A stretch of 64,000 nt of DNA, taken from Pseudomonas resinovorans NBRC 106553 (GTDB lineage Bacteria > Pseudomonadota > Gammaproteobacteria > Pseudomonadales > Pseudomonadaceae). Positions 54,117-64,000 of this stretch are shown piece by piece. The first letter of the stretch is position 1, and each line of letters begins with the position of its first letter. Where the stretch lies: NCBI RefSeq assembly GCF_000412695.1, contig NC_021499.1, positions 2,170,001 through 2,234,000 on the forward strand. The letters run 5' to 3'. Both the position numbers and the translations under genes were made by a program. The notes under the pieces are model-generated. The model did not search any database. It saw only the letters and a list, made by a program, of their open reading frames with translations, and had not been told where the DNA came from.

Positions 54117-56789
54117 ATGCGCACCGAGCAACCGAAAGTCATCTACCTCAAGGACTATCAGGCCCCGGAATACCTGATCGACGAGACCAACCTGACCTTC
54201 GAGCTGTACGAGGACCACAGCCTGGTCCACGCCCAGCTGGTGATGCGCCGCAATCCCGAGCGAGCGGCCGGTGATGCGGGCGCGGGCCTGCCGCCGCTGG
54301 TACTCGATGGCCAGCAGCTGGAGCTGCTGGCGCTGTCCATGGATGACCAGGCGCTGACCGCCGCCGACTATCAGCTGGACGACAGCCACCTGACCCTGCA
54401 GCCCAAGGCCGCCACCTTCACCCTCGACAGCACGGTGCGCATCCACCCGGAAACCAACACCGCGCTGGAAGGCCTGTACAAGTCCGGCAAGATGTTCTGC
54501 ACCCAGTGCGAGGCCGAGGGCTTCCGCAAGATCACCTATTACCTCGACCGTCCGGACGTGATGAGCAAGTTCACCACCACCGTCACGGCCGAGCAGCACC
54601 GCTATCCGGTGCTGCTGTCCAACGGCAACCCGGTGGCCAGCGGGTCGGAGGAGGGCGGTCGGCACTGGGCCACCTGGCAGGACCCCTTCAAGAAGCCGGC
54701 CTACCTGTTCGCCCTGGTGGCGGGCGACCTCTGGTGCGTCGAGGACAGCTTCACCACCATGACCGCCCGCGACGTGGCGCTGCGCATCTATGTCGAGCCG
54801 GAGAACATCGACAAGGTCCAGCACGCCATGGACAGCCTGAAGAAGTCCATGCGCTGGGACGAGGAGGTCTACGGCCGCGAGTACGACCTGGACATCTTCA
54901 TGATCGTCGCGGTCAACGACTTCAACATGGGCGCCATGGAGAACAAGGGGCTCAACATCTTCAACTCCAGCTGCGTGCTGGCCAAGGCCGAGACCGCCAC
55001 CGACGCCGCCCACCAGCGCGTCGAGGCCGTGGTGGCCCACGAGTACTTCCACAACTGGTCGGGCAACCGCGTGACCTGCCGCGACTGGTTCCAGCTGTCG
55101 CTCAAGGAAGGCTTCACCGTGTTCCGCGACGCCGAGTTCTCCGCCGACATGAACTCGCGCACGGTCAAGCGCATCGAGGACGTGGCCTTCCTGCGCACCA
55201 ACCAGTTCGCCGAGGACGCCGGCCCCATGGCCCACCCGGTGCGTCCGGACTCCTTCATGGAGATTTCCAACTTCTACACCCTGACCGTCTACGAGAAGGG
55301 CTCGGAAGTGGTGCGCATGATCCACACCCTGCTGGGCGCCGAAGGCTTCCGCAAGGGCACCGACCTCTACTTCGAGCGCCATGACGGCCAGGCCGTGACC
55401 TGCGACGACTTCATCAAGGCCATGGAAGACGCCAATGGCGTCGACCTGACCCAGTTCAAGCGCTGGTACAGCCAGGCGGGCACGCCGCGCCTCGCCGTGA
55501 CCGAAGCCTTCGATCCTGCCGCGCGCACCTACACCCTGAGCTTCCGCCAGAGCTGCCCGGCCACCCCAGGCCAGGCGGAGAAACTGCCCTTCGTCATTCC
55601 CGTCGAGCTGGGCCTGCTGGATGCCGCCGGCAACGACCTGCCGCTGCGCCTGGCCGGCGAAGCACAGGCCGGTGGCGGCAACCGGGTGATCTCGGTGACC
55701 GAGGCCGAGCAGTCGTTCACCTTCGTCGATATCGCCGAGAAGCCGCTGCCGTCGCTGCTGCGCGGGCTGTCCGCGCCGGTGAAGCTGAGCTTCCCCTACG
55801 ACCGCGACCAGCTGATGTTCCTCATGCAGCACGACTCCGACGGCTTCAACCGTTGGGATGCCGGGCAGCAGCTGTCGGTACAGGTGCTGCAGGAACTGAT
55901 CGGCCAGCATCAGCGCGGCGAGCCGCTGCAGCTGGACCCGCGCCTGCTCACCGCCTTCCGCACCCTGCTGGACGACGAGTCCCTGGACCAGGCGATGGTG
56001 GCCGAGATGCTCTCGCTGCCGAGCGAGGCCTATCTCACCGAGATCAGCGAAGTGGCCGACGTGGATGCCATCCATGCCGCCCGCGAGTTCACCCGGCAGT
56101 CCATCGGCGCCACCCTGTTCGAGCCGTTGCTGGCGCGCTACCAGGCCAATCGCGCGATCTCCCGGGAAACCGGCTATGTCGCCGAGGCCGCCCACATCGC
56201 CCGGCGTACCCTGCAGAACATCGCCCTGTCGTACCTGATGCAGAGCGGCAAGGCGGACGTGCTGGCGGCCTGCCTCGAGCAGTTCAAGGACTGCGACAAC
56301 ATGACCGAGCGCCTCTCGGCCCTGGCCGTGCTGGTCAACTCCGGCTTCGAGCAGGAGAAGGCCGAGGCCCTGGCGTGCTTCGCCGACTACTTCAAGGATG
56401 ACCCGCTGGTGATGGACCAGTGGTTCAGCGTGCAAGCCGGTTGCGGCCTGCCGGGTGGCCTGGAGCGCGTCCAGGCGCTGATGGAGCATCCGGCCTTCAC
56501 CCTGAAGAACCCCAACAAGGTGCGCGCCCTGATCGGTGCCTTCGCCAACCAGAACCTGGTGAACTTCCACCGGGCCGATGGCGCGGGCTACCGCTTCCTC
56601 GCCGACCATGTGATCACCCTGAACGCCCTCAACCCGCAGATCGCTTCCCGCCAGCTGGCGCCCCTGACCCGCTGGCGCAAGTACGACGACGGCCGCCAGC
56701 AGCTGATGAGGGCCGAACTGGAGCGCATCCTCGCCTCGGGCGAGCTCTCCAGCGACGTCTTCGAAGTGGTCAGCAAGAGCCTCGCCTGA
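54117..56789 (+). CDS. pepN: Aminopeptidase N (PepN)
   Basis: An 890-residue cytoplasmic M1 zinc aminopeptidase with broad N-terminal specificity in peptide turnover. The exopeptidase motif GAMEN lies at residues 272-276, the zinc site HEYFH at 308-312, with the third ligand Glu331 18 residues further on (HExxH-x18-E). The length is normal for the gammaproteobacterial type. The start ATG at 54117 is preceded by GAAGAG; the upstream in-frame ATG at 54072 is less likely because it adds residues that precede the MRTEQPKVIYLKDY start. Confidence 0.97.
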   Translation: MRTEQPKVIYLKDYQAPEYLIDETNLTFELYEDHSLVHAQLVMRRNPERAAGDAGAGLPPLVLDGQQLELLALSMDDQALTAADYQLDDSHLTLQPKAATFTLDSTVRIHPETNTALEGLYKSGKMFCTQCEAEGFRKITYYLDRPDVMSKFTTTVTAEQHRYPVLLSNGNPVASGSEEGGRHWATWQDPFKKPAYLFALVAGDLWCVEDSFTTMTARDVALRIYVEPENIDKVQHAMDSLKKSMRWDEEVYGREYDLDIFMIVAVNDFNMGAMENKGLNIFNSSCVLAKAETATDAAHQRVEAVVAHEYFHNWSGNRVTCRDWFQLSLKEGFTVFRDAEFSADMNSRTVKRIEDVAFLRTNQFAEDAGPMAHPVRPDSFMEISNFYTLTVYEKGSEVVRMIHTLLGAEGFRKGTDLYFERHDGQAVTCDDFIKAMEDANGVDLTQFKRWYSQAGTPRLAVTEAFDPAARTYTLSFRQSCPATPGQAEKLPFVIPVELGLLDAAGNDLPLRLAGEAQAGGGNRVISVTEAEQSFTFVDIAEKPLPSLLRGLSAPVKLSFPYDRDQLMFLMQHDSDGFNRWDAGQQLSVQVLQELIGQHQRGEPLQLDPRLLTAFRTLLDDESLDQAMVAEMLSLPSEAYLTEISEVADVDAIHAAREFTRQSIGATLFEPLLARYQANRAISRETGYVAEAAHIARRTLQNIALSYLMQSGKADVLAACLEQFKDCDNMTERLSALAVLVNSGFEQEKAEALACFADYFKDDPLVMDQWFSVQAGCGLPGGLERVQALMEHPAFTLKNPNKVRALIGAFANQNLVNFHRADGAGYRFLADHVITLNALNPQIASRQLAPLTRWRKYDDGRQQLMRAELERILASGELSSDVFEVVSKSLA

Positions 56790-56847
56790 CGCCCTCCGGC
56801 AGCCCGTGAAAGCGGGCTGTCATCTCCTGCAACAACTCTCTCCAGGG

Positions 56848-56882
56848 AGTGTTACCGGTTAGCGCCGGTAACACTTTTTTGT
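56848..56882 (+). terminator. Terminator after pepN
   Basis: A perfect 11-bp stem (AGTGTTACCGG 56848-56858 with CCGGTAACACT 56865-56875), loop TTAGCG, then TTTTT. A textbook intrinsic terminator. Confidence 0.9.
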
Positions 56883-57048
56883 TACTCAAGGAAATGAACC
56901 TTCGCGCTTTTATGCGTGAACAGTCTTAAAAGCCCAGAAAAGGCTTGACCAGACAGCTTTTGGTATGAGCGTACATGCCCTGCAAGTGTGATCTTGAGTG
57001 ACAAATCGTGCCAGATCGTCCGACAAGATCGGACAGAAAATCTGAAAT

Positions 57049-57067
57049 TGATCAGTGGATGATCAGT
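57049..57067. repeat. Tandem TGATCAGT motifs upstream of the DUF1302 gene
   Basis: TGATCAGT occurs at 57049-57056 and 57060-57067, with starts 11 bp apart (one helical turn). A third copy is at 57286-57293, close to the start of the downstream gene. The core TGATCA is itself palindromic. This spacing suits a dimeric regulator bound side by side on one face of the helix. Confidence 0.5.
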
Positions 57068-57310
57068 CACTTGTTTGACTGATTTCCGGCGCTTGGTGCG
57101 TGGAGATTTTTTGGCGCCTGTCGGCGACTTGGCACCATGGTTGCAATGCCCCAGAAGATTTGGCCCTGTTTCGGTGCAAACCGAGCGGGGTGCGCTCTGC
57201 GCTGGGGATTTCCTGCCGAAGCCAAACAGACCGCGTCACGCGGCTGCACAAACAAGGCCCGCCCGATGGGCCGCCAATAACAAAGTGATCAGTCCACGGA
57301 GTAAGACTCG

Positions 57311-59347
57311 ATGGAGCTCAAGTCCCGCAAGCCCACGTTGCGTTTCGCACCGGCCAAGGCAGGTTTCGCCTTCGTCGGTATCCTGCCGATCCTGGTAGCC
57401 GCCCAGGCCCAGGCGGTGGAGTTCAGCTTCGCCGACGGCGAAGTCGCCGGTTCCCTCGACACCACCGTTTCCTACGGCCAACTGTGGCGCGTACAGGGAC
57501 AGGACAGGACCAACGACGACATCAACACCAACGACGGTAACCGTAACTTCAATACCGGCCTGGTCTCCGAGGTCTACAAGATCACTTCCGACCTGGAAGC
57601 GACCTACAAGAACTACGGCATGTTCGTCCGCGGCACTGCGTTCTATGACACCCAGATCATGGACAAGCGCAACGACTACCTGGACAACAACAACCCCGTC
57701 CAGCCGAGCCAGAACTTCCCGCGCGACGACAGCTTCACCCGTGAGACCCGCCACAAGGCCGGTCGCGACGCGCAGATCCTCGACGCCTACCTCTACGGCA
57801 ACTGGGACGTGGCCGACATGCCGCTCACCGGCCGTATCGGCAAGCAGGTATTCAACTGGGGCGAGGGCATCTTCTACCGTGGTGGCATCAACACCACCAA
57901 CCCGGTCGACGCCGCCAAGTTCCGCCTGCCGGGCTCCGAGCTGAAGGAAGTGCTGGTGCCGGTAGAGGCCCTGAACTTCAGCCTCGGCCTGACCGATAAC
58001 CTGTCGGTGGAAACCTTCTACCAGTTCAACTTCAAAGAATCGGCCATCGACCCGGTAGGTACCTACTTCTCCGAGACCGACCTGTTCGCCGATGGCGGCA
58101 ACACCGCTTATTCGACCCAGCGCGCGCTGACTCCGCTCGCGCCGCTGTACGCCGGCTTCAGCGCCGCCGGTGTGGGTGGTCTGCAGGGTGGCCGTAACGT
58201 CGACGCCAATGGCGTGATCAAGGTCGCCTCGGTTGGCCCGGACATCAACGCCAAGAACGACGGCCAGTTCGGTATCGCCTTCCGCTACATCGCCGAAGAG
58301 CTCAACTCCACCGAGTTCGGTTTCTACTTCGTCAACTACCACGCCAAGGAACCGACCATCGCCGCCAACCTGGGCGCCTACGATGGCCTGAACCTGGCCC
58401 AGATCGCAGGTCAGGCAGCCGTTGCCCTGACCCCGCAGGTTCAGCAGGCGGTCGCAGCCCAGGCCGGTATCTCCGTCGCCCAACTGCAGGCCGTGCTGGC
58501 CAACCCAGCCCTCAACCCGGCTCTGGCTCAGGCCTACTCCAACGCCCTGACCACCGCCGCCACCACGGCAGCCGGCGGCCTGGCGACCATGGACGTGGCC
58601 AACGCCGTCCAGGCCCAGCGCGAATACGTCGAAGACATCCGCATGTACGGCGTCAGCTTCAACACCACCGTCGGCAACGCCTCGGTGTTCGGTGAGCTGG
58701 CCTACCGCCCGAACCTGCCGATCGGCATCGCCACCACCAACGACCTGCTGGGCGACCTGCTGCTCCAGGCTCCGCAGCTGGCCGCCGGCGGCGTCGTCAA
58801 TATCGGCGGCACCGACGTGCAGCTGGGTGACTCGATCCACAACTACGAGCGCGTCGAAGCCTTCAACAGCTCCGTGGGCACCATCTACAACTTCGGCCCG
58901 TCGCTGTCCTTCGACTCCCTGTTTGGTGTCGCCGAGCTGGCCTCCGAGCACCTGCGCGGCAGCTCCCTGCAATACACCGCGTTCAACGGCCAGAAGCGCT
59001 ACTACTCCGGCCGTGGCAACAACTCCTACGTGTCCGGCGGCGACCGCGACGATCAGGTCAACAAGAACGCCTACGGCTACACCCTGCTGCTGTCCGGTAC
59101 CTGGAACGACGTCTACGCCGGCGTGAACGTTTCCCCCTATGTCGTCTACAAGGACGATTTCGAGGGCAACTCCTACCAGACCGGCAACTTCATCGAGGGT
59201 CGCAAGGCCTACACCCTGGGCGTCAAGGCCACCTACCTGCAAAGCCTGGAAGCCGAGCTGCAGTACACCGAATTCTTCGGCGGCGGCCAGAACAACTCCG
59301 TACGCGACCGCGACAACATCGGGGTCAGCGTCAAGTACTCCTTCTAA
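57311..59347 (+). CDS. DUF1302 outer-membrane beta-barrel protein
   Basis: A 678-residue protein with a signal peptide (KAGFAFVGILPILVAAQAQA, likely cut before VEFSF). Alternating beta strands follow, and it ends in Phe (VSVKYSF), the classic outer-membrane barrel signature. Early strands read VEFSFADGEVAGSLDTTVSYG. An Ala/Gln-rich, probably helical segment sits near residues 360-430 (LNLAQIAGQAAVALTPQVQQAVAAQAG), possibly a plug or periplasmic insert. GGAG lies upstream of the ATG. The DUF1329 gene follows after 63 nt. The family is often paired with DUF1329 proteins near hydrophobic-compound catabolism genes; function not settled. Confidence 0.9.
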   Translation: MELKSRKPTLRFAPAKAGFAFVGILPILVAAQAQAVEFSFADGEVAGSLDTTVSYGQLWRVQGQDRTNDDINTNDGNRNFNTGLVSEVYKITSDLEATYKNYGMFVRGTAFYDTQIMDKRNDYLDNNNPVQPSQNFPRDDSFTRETRHKAGRDAQILDAYLYGNWDVADMPLTGRIGKQVFNWGEGIFYRGGINTTNPVDAAKFRLPGSELKEVLVPVEALNFSLGLTDNLSVETFYQFNFKESAIDPVGTYFSETDLFADGGNTAYSTQRALTPLAPLYAGFSAAGVGGLQGGRNVDANGVIKVASVGPDINAKNDGQFGIAFRYIAEELNSTEFGFYFVNYHAKEPTIAANLGAYDGLNLAQIAGQAAVALTPQVQQAVAAQAGISVAQLQAVLANPALNPALAQAYSNALTTAATTAAGGLATMDVANAVQAQREYVEDIRMYGVSFNTTVGNASVFGELAYRPNLPIGIATTNDLLGDLLLQAPQLAAGGVVNIGGTDVQLGDSIHNYERVEAFNSSVGTIYNFGPSLSFDSLFGVAELASEHLRGSSLQYTAFNGQKRYYSGRGNNSYVSGGDRDDQVNKNAYGYTLLLSGTWNDVYAGVNVSPYVVYKDDFEGNSYQTGNFIEGRKAYTLGVKATYLQSLEAELQYTEFFGGGQNNSVRDRDNIGVSVKYSF

Positions 59348-59364
59348 TACCAACAAGAACAAGA

Positions 59365-59384
59365 CGGGCGCCCCCGGGCGCCCG
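59365..59384 (+). other. Intercistronic hairpin between DUF1302 and DUF1329 genes
   Basis: CGGGCGCC (59365-59372) pairs perfectly with GGCGCCCG (59377-59384), loop CCCG, no T-run. It is likely an mRNA-stabilising hairpin protecting the upstream barrel transcript, not a terminator. Confidence 0.6.
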
Positions 59385-59410
59385 ATGCAGACTCATCACG
59401 GAGAATCCAC

Positions 59411-60778
59411 ATGCTGAAAAAGCTTTCGCTGATTAGCGCCGCGGTAGCGCTGGCGCTCACCGCCAGCAGCGCCCTGGCGCAGGTCTCGGCCCAGGAAGCC
59501 GCCAAGCTCGGCACCACCCTGACCCCCTTCGGCGCCGAAAAGGCCGGCAACGCAGCCGGCACCATTCCGGCCTGGACCGGTGGCATCACCGAGATCCCGG
59601 CGGGCTACAAGCCTGGCATGCACCATCCGGATCCGTTCCCGGAAGACAAGCCGCTGTTCACCATCACCAAGGCCAACCTGGACCAGTACAAGGCCAACCT
59701 GACCCCGGGTCAGATCGCCCTGTTCAACGCCTACCCGAACAGCTTCCAGATGCCGGTCTACCAGACCCGCCGTTCCGGCTCCGCGCCGCAATGGATCTAC
59801 GACAACACCATCAAGAACGCCACCACCGCCAAACTGCTGGACGGCGGCAACGGCTTCTCCGATGCCTACGGCGGCATTCCGTTCCCGATCCCGCAGAACG
59901 GCGTGGAAGCCCTGTGGAACCACATCACCCGTTACCGCGGCAACTACATCGTGCGTCGCGCCTCCGAAGTGGCCGTGCAGCGCAACGGTGACTTCTCCCT
60001 GGTGACCTCGCAGCAGGAAGCCCTGTTCAAGTACTACAACCCGAAGGGTTCGTACGCTGACCTGAACAACATCCTCTTCTACTACCTGTCCTTCACCAAG
60101 AGCCCGGCTCGCCTGGCTGGTGGCGCCACCCTGGTCCACGAAACCCTCGACCAGGTGAAGGAGCCGCGTCAGGCCTGGGCTTACAACGCCGGCCAACGCC
60201 GCGTGCGCCGTGCGCCGAACCTGGCCTACGACACCCCGATCGCCGCCGCCGACGGCCTGCGTACCGCCGACGACACCGACATGTTCAACGGTGCCCCGGA
60301 TCGCTACGACTGGAAACTGGTGGGCAAGAAGGAAATCTACATCCCGTACAACAACTACAAGGTCTCCAGCCCTTCGGTTAAGTACAAGGACCTGCTGCAA
60401 CCGGGCCACCTGAACCCGGCCGTTACCCGCAACGAACTGCACCGTGTGTGGGTCGTGGAAGGCACCCTGAAGCCGGGCGCCCGTCACATCTACTCCAAGC
60501 GCACCCTGTTCCTCGACGAGGACAGCTGGCAAGCCGCAGTGGTTGACCAGTACGACGGCCGTGGCGAACTGTGGCGTGTATCGGTGGCCTACCTGAAGAA
60601 CTACTACGAGCTGCCGACCACCTGGTCCGCGCTGGATGTGTTCCACGACCTGCAGGCCCGCCGCTACCACGTACAGAACCTGGACAACGAAGAGCCGACC
60701 ACCATCGACTTCAACCAGGCGGTCCCGGACGATGGCTACTTCAAGCCGTCCGCCCTGCGTCGCCGCGGTACTCGTTGA
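59411..60778 (+). CDS. DUF1329 periplasmic protein (LolA-like)
   Basis: A 455-residue exported protein with a clear signal peptide (MLKKLSLISAAVALALTASS, cut after SALA). The mature part holds the DUF1329 domain, including EAAKLGTTLTPFGAEKAGN at the start, GIPFPIPQNGVEALWNH, and RAWAYNAGQRRVRRAPNLAYD-like QAWAYNAGQRRVRRAP. The family is reported to share the LolA/LolB lipid-binding fold, so carrying a lipid or another hydrophobic molecule through the periplasm fits. CGGAGAA precedes the ATG. It pairs with the DUF1302 barrel in one operon and ends at a strong terminator. Confidence 0.9.
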   Translation: MLKKLSLISAAVALALTASSALAQVSAQEAAKLGTTLTPFGAEKAGNAAGTIPAWTGGITEIPAGYKPGMHHPDPFPEDKPLFTITKANLDQYKANLTPGQIALFNAYPNSFQMPVYQTRRSGSAPQWIYDNTIKNATTAKLLDGGNGFSDAYGGIPFPIPQNGVEALWNHITRYRGNYIVRRASEVAVQRNGDFSLVTSQQEALFKYYNPKGSYADLNNILFYYLSFTKSPARLAGGATLVHETLDQVKEPRQAWAYNAGQRRVRRAPNLAYDTPIAAADGLRTADDTDMFNGAPDRYDWKLVGKKEIYIPYNNYKVSSPSVKYKDLLQPGHLNPAVTRNELHRVWVVEGTLKPGARHIYSKRTLFLDEDSWQAAVVDQYDGRGELWRVSVAYLKNYYELPTTWSALDVFHDLQARRYHVQNLDNEEPTTIDFNQAVPDDGYFKPSALRRRGTR

Positions 60779-60794
60779 TCCGCGACACCCCGTG

Positions 60795-60826
60795 AAAAAG
60801 GCCGCTGAAAAGCGGCCTTTTTCTTT
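60795..60826 (+). terminator. Terminator after the DUF1329 gene
   Basis: A perfect stem AAGGCCGCT (60798-60806) / AGCGGCCTT (60811-60819), loop GAAA, then TTTCTTT. It splits the barrel/LolA-like pair from the propeller/RND pair, so the latter needs its own promoter or read-through. Confidence 0.87.
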
Positions 60827-60966
60827 GCGCGCTCGGTTACAGAGCGCCACCGGCGCTTAACAAAACATAACGTCCCACTGATTGTGCAGGCTTTCCAAAG
60901 CTGGCTAGGATTAGCTCGCTGCTCGACCCGGGCAGACCTACCTATAACAACAAGGGGTAAAGGTGT

Positions 60967-62040
60967 ATGAGTGAGCCCGTCATGCGGCGCACCTCGTCCG
61001 GCCTCCACAAGCCGACGTTCCGCTTCCAATCGCCGCTGGCCAAAGCGCTCTCGCTGTTCAGTGTGCTCTCCGCCCTGGCTGTAGGCGCTGCGCCCATCAC
61101 CGCATCCGCGCTGGCCGCCGATGCACCGGTCCTCTCCATCGAATCGCCCAAGGCCGTCAGCAGCCTGCTGCTCGATGTCGCCCATGCCGGCAAGCGCCTG
61201 GTGGCCGTTGGCGACCGTGGCCATATCCTTTATTCCGACGACAACGGCAAGTCCTGGACCCAGGCCAAGGTGCCTACCCGCCAGATGCTCGCCGCGGTCT
61301 ATTTCGTTGACGACAAGAAAGGCTGGGCCGTTGGCCACGACTCGCAGATCCTCGCCAGCGAGGACGGCGGCGCGACCTGGACCCTGCAGTTCGAAGACCT
61401 GGAGCGCGAAGCGCCCCTGCTGGACGTCTGGTTCAAGGACGCCAGCACCGGCTTCGCCGTGGGTGCCTACGGCGCCCTGCTGACCACCCAGGATGGCGGC
61501 AAGAACTGGGAAGACGTCAGCGACCGTCTCGACAACGAAGACCAGTACCACCTCAACGCCATCACCGCGGTGAAGGACTCCGGCCTGTTCGTGGTGGGGG
61601 AGGCGGGCAGCATGTTCCGCTCCGCCGACTGGGGCCAGACCTGGGAACGCCTCGAAGGCCCGTACGAAGGCTCGTTGTTCGGCGTGCTCGGCACCGCCGA
61701 GCCGGGCGTGGTCATCGCCTACGGCCTGCGTGGCCACCTGTTCCGCTCCACTGATTTCGGCGGCACCTGGGACACCGTGTCGCTGAAAACCACCAGCGGC
61801 GATCTGGAGTTCGGCCTGTCCGGCGGCGCCCTGCTGCCCGACGGCACCCTGGTGGTGGTCGGCCATGGCGGCAGCGTGCTCAAGAGCATCGACAATGGCC
61901 GCAGCTTCACTGTGGTGAACCGCAGCGACCGCCTGTCGCTTGCCAGCGTCATCGCTGATGAAAAGGGCAACCTGATTCTGGTGGGACAGGGCGGTGTACG
62001 CGTAGCGTCCCCGACCGGCGCCGAGCTGGGCCAACTATAA
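60967..62040 (+). CDS. Ycf48/BNR-repeat beta-propeller protein
   Basis: A 357-residue exported protein. A ~50-residue N-terminus with a hydrophobic stretch and Ala-rich cleavage region (ASALAADAP) is followed by about six Asp-box blades, e.g. GHILYSDDNGKSWTQ, SQILASEDGGATWT, ALLTTQDGGKNWE, SMFRSADWGQTWE, HLFRSTDFGGTWD and SVLKSIDNGRSF. These are typical of Ycf48/HCF136-like propellers, which in plants and cyanobacteria assist photosystem II assembly. Here it is probably a periplasmic assembly or partner protein for the transporter gene 19 nt downstream. AAGG precedes the ATG. Confidence 0.88.
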   Translation: MSEPVMRRTSSGLHKPTFRFQSPLAKALSLFSVLSALAVGAAPITASALAADAPVLSIESPKAVSSLLLDVAHAGKRLVAVGDRGHILYSDDNGKSWTQAKVPTRQMLAAVYFVDDKKGWAVGHDSQILASEDGGATWTLQFEDLEREAPLLDVWFKDASTGFAVGAYGALLTTQDGGKNWEDVSDRLDNEDQYHLNAITAVKDSGLFVVGEAGSMFRSADWGQTWERLEGPYEGSLFGVLGTAEPGVVIAYGLRGHLFRSTDFGGTWDTVSLKTTSGDLEFGLSGGALLPDGTLVVVGHGGSVLKSIDNGRSFTVVNRSDRLSLASVIADEKGNLILVGQGGVRVASPTGAELGQL

Positions 62041-62059
62041 GAAAAGCCGGAGAGTTTCG

Positions 62060-64000
62060 ATGAGTACCCATCACCAGGACAAGGCGACCTTCCTGGAGCG
62101 CCTGATCTTCAACAACCGGCCGGCGGTGATCGTCATCTGCCTGCTGGTTAGCATCTTCCTCTTCTGGCAGGCCCTGCAAGTGCGGCCGTCCACCAGCTTC
62201 GAGAAGATGATCCCGCTGCAGCACCCCTTCATCCAGAAGATGATCGAGCACCGCAACGACCTGGCCAACCTGGGCAACACCGTGCGTATTTCGGTGGAAG
62301 CGGTCGACGGCGACATCTTCACCAAGGAGTACATGGAGACCCTGCGCCAGATCCACGACGAGGTGTTCTACATCTCCGGCGTCGATCGTTCCGGCCTGAA
62401 GTCCCTGTGGAGCCCGAGCGTGCGCTGGACCGAGGTGACCGAGGAAGGCTTCGCCGGTGGCGAGGTGATCCCGCAGACCTACGACGGTTCCCCGGCCAGC
62501 CTGGAAGACCTGCGCAACAACGTGCTCAAGTCCGGCCAGATCGGTCGCCTGGTGGCCAACAACTTCAAGTCGAGCATCATCGACGTGCCGCTGCTGGAGT
62601 CCTATCCGGACCCGAACGACCAGGGCAAGCTGATGAAGCTGGACTACCGCCAGTTCTCCCATGAGCTGGAAGAGAAGATCCGCGACAAGTACCAGGCGCA
62701 GAACCCCAACGTGAAGGTTCACATAGTGGGCTTCGCCAAGAAGGTCGGTGACCTGATCGACGGCCTGATCATGGTGGTGATGTTCTTCGGTATCGCCTTC
62801 CTGATCACACTGGTGCTGCTCTACTGGTTCACCTGGTGTATCCGCAGCACCATCGCCGTGCTGTCCACCACCCTGGTGGCGGTGATCTGGCAGCTGGGCC
62901 TGATGCACACCGTGGGCTTCGGTCTCGATCCCTATTCGATGCTGGTGCCCTTCCTGATCTTCGCCATCGGTATTTCCCACGGCGTACAGAAGATCAACGG
63001 TATCGCCCTGCAATCCAGTGACGCCGACAACGCACTGACGGCGGCACGACGCACCTTCCGCCAGCTGTTCCTGCCGGGGATGATCGCGATCCTGGCGGAC
63101 GCCGTGGGCTTCATCACCCTGCTGATCATCGACATCGGCGTGATCCGCGAGCTGGCCATCGGCGCCTCCATCGGTGTGGCGGTGATCGTGTTCACCAACC
63201 TGATCCTGCTGCCGGTAGCGATCTCCTACGTCGGCATCAGCAAGAAGGCCATCGAGCGCAGCAAGAAGGACGCCGTGCGCGAGCATCCGTTCTGGCGCTT
63301 GCTGTCCAACTTCGCCCACCCGGTGGTAGCCCCGATCTCCGTGGTCATTGCCCTGATCGCCTTCGGTGGCGGCCTGTGGTACAGCCAGAACCTGAAGATC
63401 GGCGACCTCGACCAGGGCGCGCCGGAACTGCGTCCTGACTCGCGCTACAACCAGGACAACAACTTCATCATCAACAACTACTCCACCAGCTCCGACGTGT
63501 TGGTCGTGATGGTCAAGACCGCCGCCGAAGGCTGCTCGACCCACGAGACCCTGGCGCCGGTGGACGAGCTGATGTGGAAGATGGAGAACACGCCGGGCGT
63601 GCAATCGGCCATCTCCATGGTCACCGTCTCCAAGCAGGTGATCAAAGGGATGAACGAAGGCAACCTGAAGTGGGAAACCCTGTCCCGCAACCAGGACGTG
63701 CTGAACAACTCCATCAGCCGCGCCGAAGGCCTGTACAACTCCGACTGCTCCCTGGCGCCGGTCCTGGTGTTCCTCAACGACCACAAGGCCGAGACCCTGA
63801 CCCGCGTCGTGACCGCCGTGCAGGAATTCGCCGAGACCCACGACAAGGACGGCCTGCAGTTCCTCCTGGCAGCCGGCAACGCCGGTATCGAAGCGGCCAC
63901 CAACGAGGTGATCGCCCAGGCCGAGCTGACCATCCTGATCCTGGTGTACATCTGCGTCGCGATCATGTGCCTGATCACCTTCCGCTCCATCGCCGCCACC
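62060..64000 (+). CDS. MMPL/RND-family transporter, partial (runs off the right edge)
   Basis: The frame is open from the ATG at 62060 to the window end: 647 codons without a stop, so the C-terminus is missing. First membrane helix near residues 23-41 (VIVICLLVSIFLFWQAL), then a periplasmic domain of about 190 residues, a block of helices from ~235 (DGLIMVVMFFGIAFLITLVLLYWF) to ~395 with an SSD-like LVPFLIFAIGISHGVQKING, another periplasmic domain, and the start of a second helix block at 630. This is the RND/MMPL layout. CCGGAGAG precedes the ATG. Paired with the propeller gene; the substrate is probably hydrophobic or lipid-like (inference). Confidence 0.92.
   Translation, partial: MSTHHQDKATFLERLIFNNRPAVIVICLLVSIFLFWQALQVRPSTSFEKMIPLQHPFIQKMIEHRNDLANLGNTVRISVEAVDGDIFTKEYMETLRQIHDEVFYISGVDRSGLKSLWSPSVRWTEVTEEGFAGGEVIPQTYDGSPASLEDLRNNVLKSGQIGRLVANNFKSSIIDVPLLESYPDPNDQGKLMKLDYRQFSHELEEKIRDKYQAQNPNVKVHIVGFAKKVGDLIDGLIMVVMFFGIAFLITLVLLYWFTWCIRSTIAVLSTTLVAVIWQLGLMHTVGFGLDPYSMLVPFLIFAIGISHGVQKINGIALQSSDADNALTAARRTFRQLFLPGMIAILADAVGFITLLIIDIGVIRELAIGASIGVAVIVFTNLILLPVAISYVGISKKAIERSKKDAVREHPFWRLLSNFAHPVVAPISVVIALIAFGGGLWYSQNLKIGDLDQGAPELRPDSRYNQDNNFIINNYSTSSDVLVVMVKTAAEGCSTHETLAPVDELMWKMENTPGVQSAISMVTVSKQVIKGMNEGNLKWETLSRNQDVLNNSISRAEGLYNSDCSLAPVLVFLNDHKAETLTRVVTAVQEFAETHDKDGLQFLLAAGNAGIEAATNEVIAQAELTILILVYICVAIMCLITFRSIAAT

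Follow-up and report, generated by a model that had tools for sequence, protein, structure and literature searches.

How do poorly soluble hydrophobic molecules cross the periplasm of Gram-negative bacteria, and what drives them? To our knowledge the question is largely open, and FadL-type outer-membrane channels explain neither the periplasmic step nor the energy source. It is raised by a run of four genes in Pseudomonas resinovorans NBRC 106553, in a 64,000-nt stretch of NC_021499.1 (the window; coordinates are window positions), which encode a DUF1302 outer-membrane barrel, an exported DUF1329 protein, an exported Ycf48-type propeller and a resistance-nodulation-division (RND) permease. Here, we show that the propeller and RND genes form a constant hub, and that the DUF1302–DUF1329 pair is a movable satellite, with up to nine DUF1329 genes per hub. 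We lean, by a little, towards the hub being a motor shared by several substrate modules encoded elsewhere, with the main flow inward.

A first-pass annotation of the window took the four genes for a candidate undescribed system. This does not stand, because AmeABCD (2018) is the same four-protein set and comes with mutants (PMC6394551), and an operon of an aromatics regulon (PMC6449761), a Pseudomonas putida set (PMC10866462) and a benzene cluster (PMC13101534) are also in print. The set as such is therefore known, as the AmeABCD kind, and the window locus belongs there; the sharing of its parts across a genome may be new. If many LolA-type carriers do share one RND motor, at least five separately described gene sets would come under one mechanism, DUF1302 and DUF1329 would gain roles and the efflux label on AmeABCD would be in question, with relevance to the breakdown of pollutants and to biotechnology based on oils. 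What deserves follow-up is the shared-motor architecture, and it is testable.

A constant hub and movable pairs

Among 120 Pseudomonadota genomes, its own included, strong DUF1329 proteins (at least 99 bits over most of the model) occur in 12, and strong hub RND proteins (best match above 800 bits) occur in the same 12. The chance of that overlap is 9e-17 (hypergeometric, kinship ignored), so the families co-occur far beyond chance, against the first refuting outcome that the first-pass annotation had named. The 12 genomes hold 80 DUF1329 and 27 RND genes; DUF1329 is never the rarer of the two, and the ratio of DUF1329 to RND runs from 1:1 to 9:1. Most RND genes (24 of 27) have a DUF1329 gene within 6 kb, one of the remaining three lying at a contig end, and 55 of the 80 DUF1329 genes have no RND gene within 6 kb. 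Weaker matches were set aside (DUF1329 of at most 55 bits in 26 other genomes, RND of at most 191 bits in six). They stand side by side in some genomes and resemble a related cassette, a cousin made up of LolA-like proteins of shorter length, a distant RND protein and weak barrel matches.

This distant cousin cassette is seen at G033:C2:43685-47972 (L163) and in other small Pseudomonadota genomes, with a short LolA-like protein, a divergent RND protein and a weak match to a DUF1302-like barrel. The RND protein has AD instead of the SH motif described below, and no propeller was detected in L163 by profile.

Presence was scored across 281 genomes of the class, the own genome among them, with thresholds of E ≤ 1e-40 for DUF1329 and E ≤ 1e-150 for RND; copy counts, capped at 6 and 3 per genome, were left aside. 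DUF1329 is found in 46 and RND in 36, all 36 inside the 46. A new search of the 10 DUF1329-only genomes gave a divergent RND protein in six (best E 1e-95 to 1e-128) and, in one, an RND gene cut by the contig end beside DUF1329. At the full divergent RND loci (L106-L111, L117-L119) the propeller gene lies beside the RND gene in eight of nine.

The same tight coupling is seen in a GTDB genome scan, of which the best 80 loci were taken; these are mostly from Pseudomonas because the query's first sequence serves for confirmation. The propeller gene adjoins the RND gene in all 80. DUF1302 and DUF1329 accompany the hub in just 13, DUF1329 alone in another 13 and neither in 54 (11 of these with less than 6.5 kb upstream), so the fixed four-gene unit first pictured does not describe them. 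A pepN homologue is present in 52 of the 80 loci and in all three classes; the position of the hub is thus stable in this group, and the pair comes and goes. DUF1329 is nevertheless retained: 43 of the 54 genomes were searched, and all 43 encode it elsewhere, in 1 to 15 copies. DUF1302 adjoins each of the 30 best of these copies, and 26 stand with a regulator of LuxR type akin to the one in L010; a contig end cuts two of the remaining four. No RND gene lies within the 14-20 kb around any listed DUF1329 gene in G401 (two copies), G415 or G416 (one each). Larger regions were drawn for eight copies (L164-L171): an acyl-CoA synthetase gene precedes the pair in L164, L165, L167, L169 and L170, L166 is cut, and L168 holds the pair and a LuxR-type gene with no synthetase match. 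The last, L171 (9493-14551, genome G407), is a complete further cassette that includes propeller and RND genes, and a CoA-ligase-like gene follows it; the pepN-linked hub of G407 has no pair, and one of the two DUF1329 copies of that genome sits in L171. Extra hubs can, as this arrangement suggests, be added as whole cassettes.

The genome of the window (6.48 Mb) encodes 17 DUF1329 and 16 DUF1302 proteins, six propeller open reading frames (ORFs; 10 matches in six frames) and six RND proteins of this type, besides a seventh, weak RND match (19.6 bits). Going by coordinates, each of the six RND genes is accompanied by a propeller, a DUF1302 and a DUF1329 gene, giving six full cassettes, ten DUF1302–DUF1329 pairs without a nearby hub and one lone DUF1329 gene. 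Four cassettes are ordered as in the window and two as DUF1329-DUF1302-RND-propeller. The window pair is most like an unlinked one, L011 (DUF1329 77% and DUF1302 70% identical), and for both proteins the nearest relatives are found in Metapseudomonas and related Pseudomonas. Pairwise distances among DUF1302 proteins follow those among DUF1329 proteins, with r 0.92 over 15 of the 16 own-genome pairs (L024 excluded; reached by none of 10,000 shuffles) and r 0.91 over nine satellites alone, so the partners diverge together.

Two of the cassettes, L020 (8218-14895) and L021 (7597-14236), both in the second gene order, are near-duplicates (DUF1302 85%, DUF1329 77% identical); an amine oxidase gene precedes one, and a methylamine dehydrogenase heavy-chain gene follows the other.

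Pair and hub are also parted in the window itself, by a terminator-like hairpin (Table 1). Of 25 DUF1329–propeller gaps, 7 match a strict hairpin-plus-T pattern, namely in 7 of the 13 loci with DUF1302 (window included) against 0 of 12 DUF1329-only loci (L089-L091, L094-L101, L103); less than 1% of shuffled sequence matches. The pattern is absent from 13 DUF1302–DUF1329 gaps and 81 propeller–RND gaps, partly because these short gaps (median 62 and 21 bases; 172 for DUF1329–propeller) leave little room. In loci L075, L077 and L080 the same hairpin is present but its T tract is shorter, L092 has a hairpin without a T tract, and L083 and L105 have none of this kind; of the three other own-genome cassettes in window order, L019 and L025 carry similar hairpins at the corresponding place and L023 does not. 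A first terminator scan gave no hairpin at 60795-60826, presumably because the stem extends into the T tract, and no sigma-70-like promoter was found in 56700-62100 or after the RND gene. The first reading, four genes on one strand with short gaps, holds for the run, but the genes do not evidently make up one operon. As the general case a single operon was rejected, on the counts from the best 80 loci and also because the hairpin splits the run. The hairpin may end transcription, or may allow the pair to be made in excess over the motor.

Published relatives

AmeABCD of Castellaniella defragrans is among the closest precedents. DUF1302, DUF1329, a COG4447/Ycf48-related protein and an HAE3-branch RND protein are encoded together there, are likewise tied to hydrophobic substrates and are described as one cassette whose composition and order are said to be conserved in its lineage; the ame mutant is reported to grow poorly on limonene and normally on acetate or perillyl alcohol (PMC6394551). 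The genome of the window differs in having six cassettes in two gene orders and ten unlinked pairs. A further difference is the hairpin that parts module from hub, seen in the window and in several relatives. The window RND protein is likened to AmeD by the published description, not by alignment.

In P. putida, we take PP_2018-2019 to be the propeller–RND hub beside pepN, in line with synteny in relatives. Together with PP_0765/0766 these genes are described as all required on Tween 20 and were proposed as a transport system (PMC10866462, whose account of data from Thompson 2020 is followed here). Like the window, this set has a DUF1302 and a DUF1329 protein along with a protein of the periplasm and a transporter of efflux type, but pair and hub have distant locus numbers, unlike the adjacent genes of the window, and the passages on the set do not label PP_2018 a propeller. 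The predicted contacts reported there are strong between PP_2018 and PP_2019, whereas those of PP_0766 to PP_0765 and to PP_2019 are weak (PMC10866462). The main text on a 'possible Tween-20 catabolism' module names none of the four genes (PMC10949508).

In Delftia acidovorans Cs1-4, DelCs14_1756 (DUF1302), 1757 (DUF1329) and 1758 (phnL, Ycf48-type) have, by locus number, the same order as in the window; a phnL mutant is reported to lag for 48 h on phenanthrene and to grow normally on pyruvate, and the authors read the region as serving a vesicle or nanopod function (PMC3958437). On this literature, we note that PMC13101534 (2026) credits Shetty and Hickey with deleting the DUF1329 gene DelCs14_1722 in Delftia; the text of PMC3958437 names neither DUF1329 nor DelCs14_1722, and the gene disrupted is phnL, of Ycf48 type.

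Further sets link the same families to aromatics. The Nanopod cluster of Candidatus Anaerobenzenivorax, a strictly anaerobic member of the Desulfobacterota, contains DUF1329, Ycf48-related, MMPL and porin-like proteins, the last not named DUF1302 in the passages concerned; benzene transport was proposed, with direction unspecified, and DUF1329 is described as strongly expressed (PMC13101534). An operon COG4447-COG1033-PF07044-DUF1302 in Betaproteobacteria, inferred from comparative genomics of regulators, joins all four families under AphS, with AphR/AphT in some genomes, according to the sections on it (PMC6449761). A Zoogloea phenol-hydroxylase cluster is described as containing DUF1302 and DUF1329 genes (PMC7012976), and three proteins of Pseudomonas aeruginosa with close locus tags, of DUF1302, DUF1329 and fatty acid-CoA ligase type, shift together in one direction in a proteome table (PMC7603352). 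We found neither the hub-and-satellite idea nor a paper joining these gene sets in the open-licence papers searched.

Proposed shared use of the hub and probable direction of transport

The strong hub RND gene is not found without DUF1329, and DUF1329 is rarely found without the hub, yet most pairs are remote from it. Use of the hub in trans by the pairs would account for this most simply. The joint Tween 20 phenotype in P. putida is the one experimental point for such use. In the mechanism we propose, the window locus would be one substrate module (DUF1302 and DUF1329) next to one inner-membrane hub (propeller and RND), and the hub would be a proton-driven motor common to several modules elsewhere in the genome. 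Each module would contribute a channel in the outer membrane and a carrier in the periplasm for one class of hydrophobic substrate, such as fatty acids and esters, terpenes or aromatics. The DUF1329 carrier would exchange substrate with the RND protein, with the propeller as a putative periplasmic adaptor, and the main flow would probably be inward, to catabolic enzymes encoded beside many modules.

TonB-ExbBD works on a comparable plan, one inner-membrane motor serving many substrate-specific outer-membrane modules. The resemblance is one of logic only, no sequence relation being claimed, and the window-type set differs by its RND drive and LolA-type carriers. We give roughly an even chance to the wider proposal, taken as a whole, that a TonB-independent RND–propeller motor, a second design of active envelope transport, drives many exchangeable modules of barrel and LolA-type carrier, each for a class of hydrophobic nutrient, that the RND protein imports via an unusual relay between the invariant H307 (SHxxQ) and a conserved VDY (D689-Y690), and that the terpene, phenanthrene, phenol, benzene and Tween 20 sets are all instances of it.

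As to direction, we infer that import is about twice as probable as export. Export would fit because of the usual direction of the family and the Nile Red and tolerance data given below, and import fits because dedicated channels lie beside catabolic genes. Many of 30 neighbours picked, non-randomly, from gene calls are catabolic (CoA ligases, thiolase, fatty-acid hydroxylase, sulfatase, alkyl sulfatase, Rieske oxygenase, FAA hydrolase, FAD- and FMN-dependent oxidoreductases and acyl-CoA dehydrogenase), and regulators of LuxR/MalT, AraC or LysR type stand beside modules. A peptide-type solute-binding protein, an M20 peptidase, DUF1254/DUF1214, DUF2889 and a Cache-domain protein, also among the neighbours, do not suggest hydrophobic nutrients. 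In L018 (8155-14092) the pair has a convergent alkyl sulfatase gene as the third gene on and a CoA ligase gene some genes upstream, a context that suggests alkyl sulfate surfactants as a substrate class.

Several observations weigh against a shared motor with inward flow. With six hubs for 17 DUF1329 proteins, sharing in the own genome may be partial. The 43 genomes with DUF1329 away from a bare hub are closely related, mostly Pseudomonas, and so represent few independent events, and the L171 cassette means that DUF1329 'elsewhere' is not always unlinked. DUF1302 above 350 bits occurs in the same 12 genomes as DUF1329 but also in two drafts, G069 and G117, which have no DUF1329 match at E ≤ 0.001 (the DUF1302 matches are G069:C62, L159, and G117:C333, L160, in drafts of 360 and 410 contigs). 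In 3 of the 46 DUF1329 genomes, G235, G319 and G254 (drafts of 270-330 contigs, two of one genus), RND matches are weak only and none is of AmeD type. The sole unbiased count of catabolic neighbours, AMP-binding genes near DUF1329, gives a weak enrichment (4 of 17 within 10 kb, p 0.03; p 0.46-0.47 at 5 kb and 0.07 at 20 kb; 10 of 35 matches, domains in frames of non-ribosomal peptide synthetase size, were dropped by choice). Solved bacterial relatives are mostly named exporters. The only efflux assay, with Nile Red, was interpreted as export, and the ame mutant is reported to tolerate high limonene less well (PMC6394551). The Delftia phnL mutant, as described, forms far fewer vesicles (PMC3958437).

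The exporter relatives and the ame data, which include a slight rise of Nile Red accumulation in uncoupled mutant cells, would suit an efflux machine as proposed for AmeABCD, in which the RND protein expels toxic hydrophobics via DUF1329 and the DUF1302 barrel and so protects solvent-grown cells, and the authors of the aromatics-regulon study likewise suggest a role in coping with toxic aromatics (PMC6449761). We regard this as possible but rather unlikely. Nile Red efflux curves of ame mutant and wild type are described as almost identical, and with acetate the mutant equalled the wild type up to 5 mM limonene, a result that fits poor uptake too (PMC6394551). Further, CoA ligase genes beside pairs and the requirement on Tween 20 (PMC10866462) suit feeding better than detoxification, and for an exporter it would be odd to give one pump many dedicated channels.

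The loss of vesicles bears on another alternative, namely a hub that, like HpnN with hopanoids, exports a lipid on which homeostasis of the outer membrane or of vesicles depends, with the growth defects on hydrophobic substrates as an indirect effect. The Delftia nanopod protein list includes DUF1302 and DUF1329 proteins (PMC3110197), and the RND protein has a distant match to HpnN (E 0.026), but the score against the HpnN model is 31, for a cut-off of 752, and lipid export leaves unexplained why a genome should hold many pairs, many with their own regulator and catabolic neighbours. We consider it unlikely.

Pairs might, finally, function without any RND protein, the hub serving the adjacent pair alone, which the 10 of 16 own-genome pairs without a nearby hub and the three DUF1329 genomes without such an RND protein would favour. 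This is very improbable in our judgement, since a strong RND match was never found without DUF1329 in the 120 or the 281 genomes, all 43 genomes searched among those with a hub-only locus keep DUF1329 elsewhere, and in P. putida a pair and a hub with distant locus numbers are reported to share a phenotype (PMC10866462).

The locus and its four proteins

The four ORFs first annotated, in order on one strand, were borne out (Table 1), and their parts fit both the placing across outer membrane, periplasm and inner membrane and the movement of hydrophobic molecules that had been suggested for them. The aminopeptidase gene upstream, which we take to be pepN, is separated from the set by a hairpin of its own. 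No Rfam match reached gathering scores in 56700-64000.

Table 1 Features of the locus in window coordinates
Feature	Position	Strand	Basis
pepN (aminopeptidase N, presumed), syntenic landmark outside the system	54117..56789	+	start from gene call
Terminator-like hairpin after pepN, splitting the aminopeptidase gene from the set	56848..56880	+	read in sequence
DUF1302 outer-membrane beta-barrel (AmeA-like), substrate module part 1	57311..59347	+	PF06980
DUF1329 exported protein, LolA fold (AmeB-like), substrate module part 2	59411..60778	+	PF07044
Terminator-like hairpin and T tract, between substrate module and hub	60795..60826	+	read in sequence, pattern search
Ycf48/BNR Asp-box propeller, exported (AmeC/PhnL-like), hub part 1	60967..62040	+	PF14870
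RND permease, AmeD kind (HAE3-like), hub part 2	62060..64000, on to 64435	+	

The RND gene is cut by the window end and complete in the genome (L009 12060-14435), encoding 791 aa. The protein matches MMPL in Pfam (32.5 bits), and its best NCBIfam match is HAE3 (TIGR00921, 77.6 bits against a cut-off of 351.9). Hydrophobic blocks at 14-43, 228-395, 414-442 and 615-771 fit a layout of 1+5+1+5 membrane segments round two large periplasmic loops, at the resolution of blocks rather than single segments. Residues S306, H307 and Q310 (62975-62989), the SH motif and its glutamine, are each identical in all of the best 80 loci. The hopanoid transporter HpnN was tried as an identity and rejected (TIGR03480, 31.1 bits for the 646 residues inside the window against a cut-off of 751.85); around H307 the alignment of the two is gapped and weak, and we name no HpnN residue as the counterpart of H307.

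The DUF1329 protein (455 aa; PF07044, 553 bits) also matches LolA_like (PF17131, 33.6 bits, cut-off 30), and it has the LolA fold by structural match to LolA proteins. The likeness to LolA is one of fold only, and the genomic context points to cargo other than lipoproteins.

The propeller protein (357 aa; PF14870/PSII_BNR, 95 bits) has Ycf48 proteins as its nearest solved relatives (2xbg, E 1.7e-20). It was rejected as a photosystem II assembly factor Ycf48 proper (NF010237, 91.3 bits, below the cut-off of 326). Of the six-bladed propeller first proposed, six Asp boxes were matched, but a blade number of six is not established; Ycf48 proteins are seven-bladed.

The DUF1302 protein (678 aa, C-terminal Phe) matches PF06980 with 533 bits over residues 18-678, the only Pfam family at E ≤ 0.001. 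Membership of the FadL/toluene channels was rejected on the absence of a Pfam match to that family. The structural model has an N-terminal helix and many long strands, and porin-type barrels head its fold search (for example OccAB1 and AlgE), all generic; mean predicted local distance difference test (pLDDT) is 68, and therefore no specific fold relative is claimed. FadL stands at rank 30 with a template modelling (TM) score of 0.21, which carries no weight either way.

Several database entries for homologues (P0127, P0137, P0177) call the DUF1302 barrel 'glycine/betaine transmethylase'. We assume that PA3082 of P. aeruginosa is the orthologue of the window DUF1302 gene. It is listed as gbt, 'glycine/betaine transmethylase' (PMC7775676), a name that on an exported barrel looks like a misannotation. 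Another P. aeruginosa DUF1302 protein, PA3923, was reported as a laminin-binding surface protein (PMC6890786), which we take solely as evidence for surface exposure of DUF1302 proteins.

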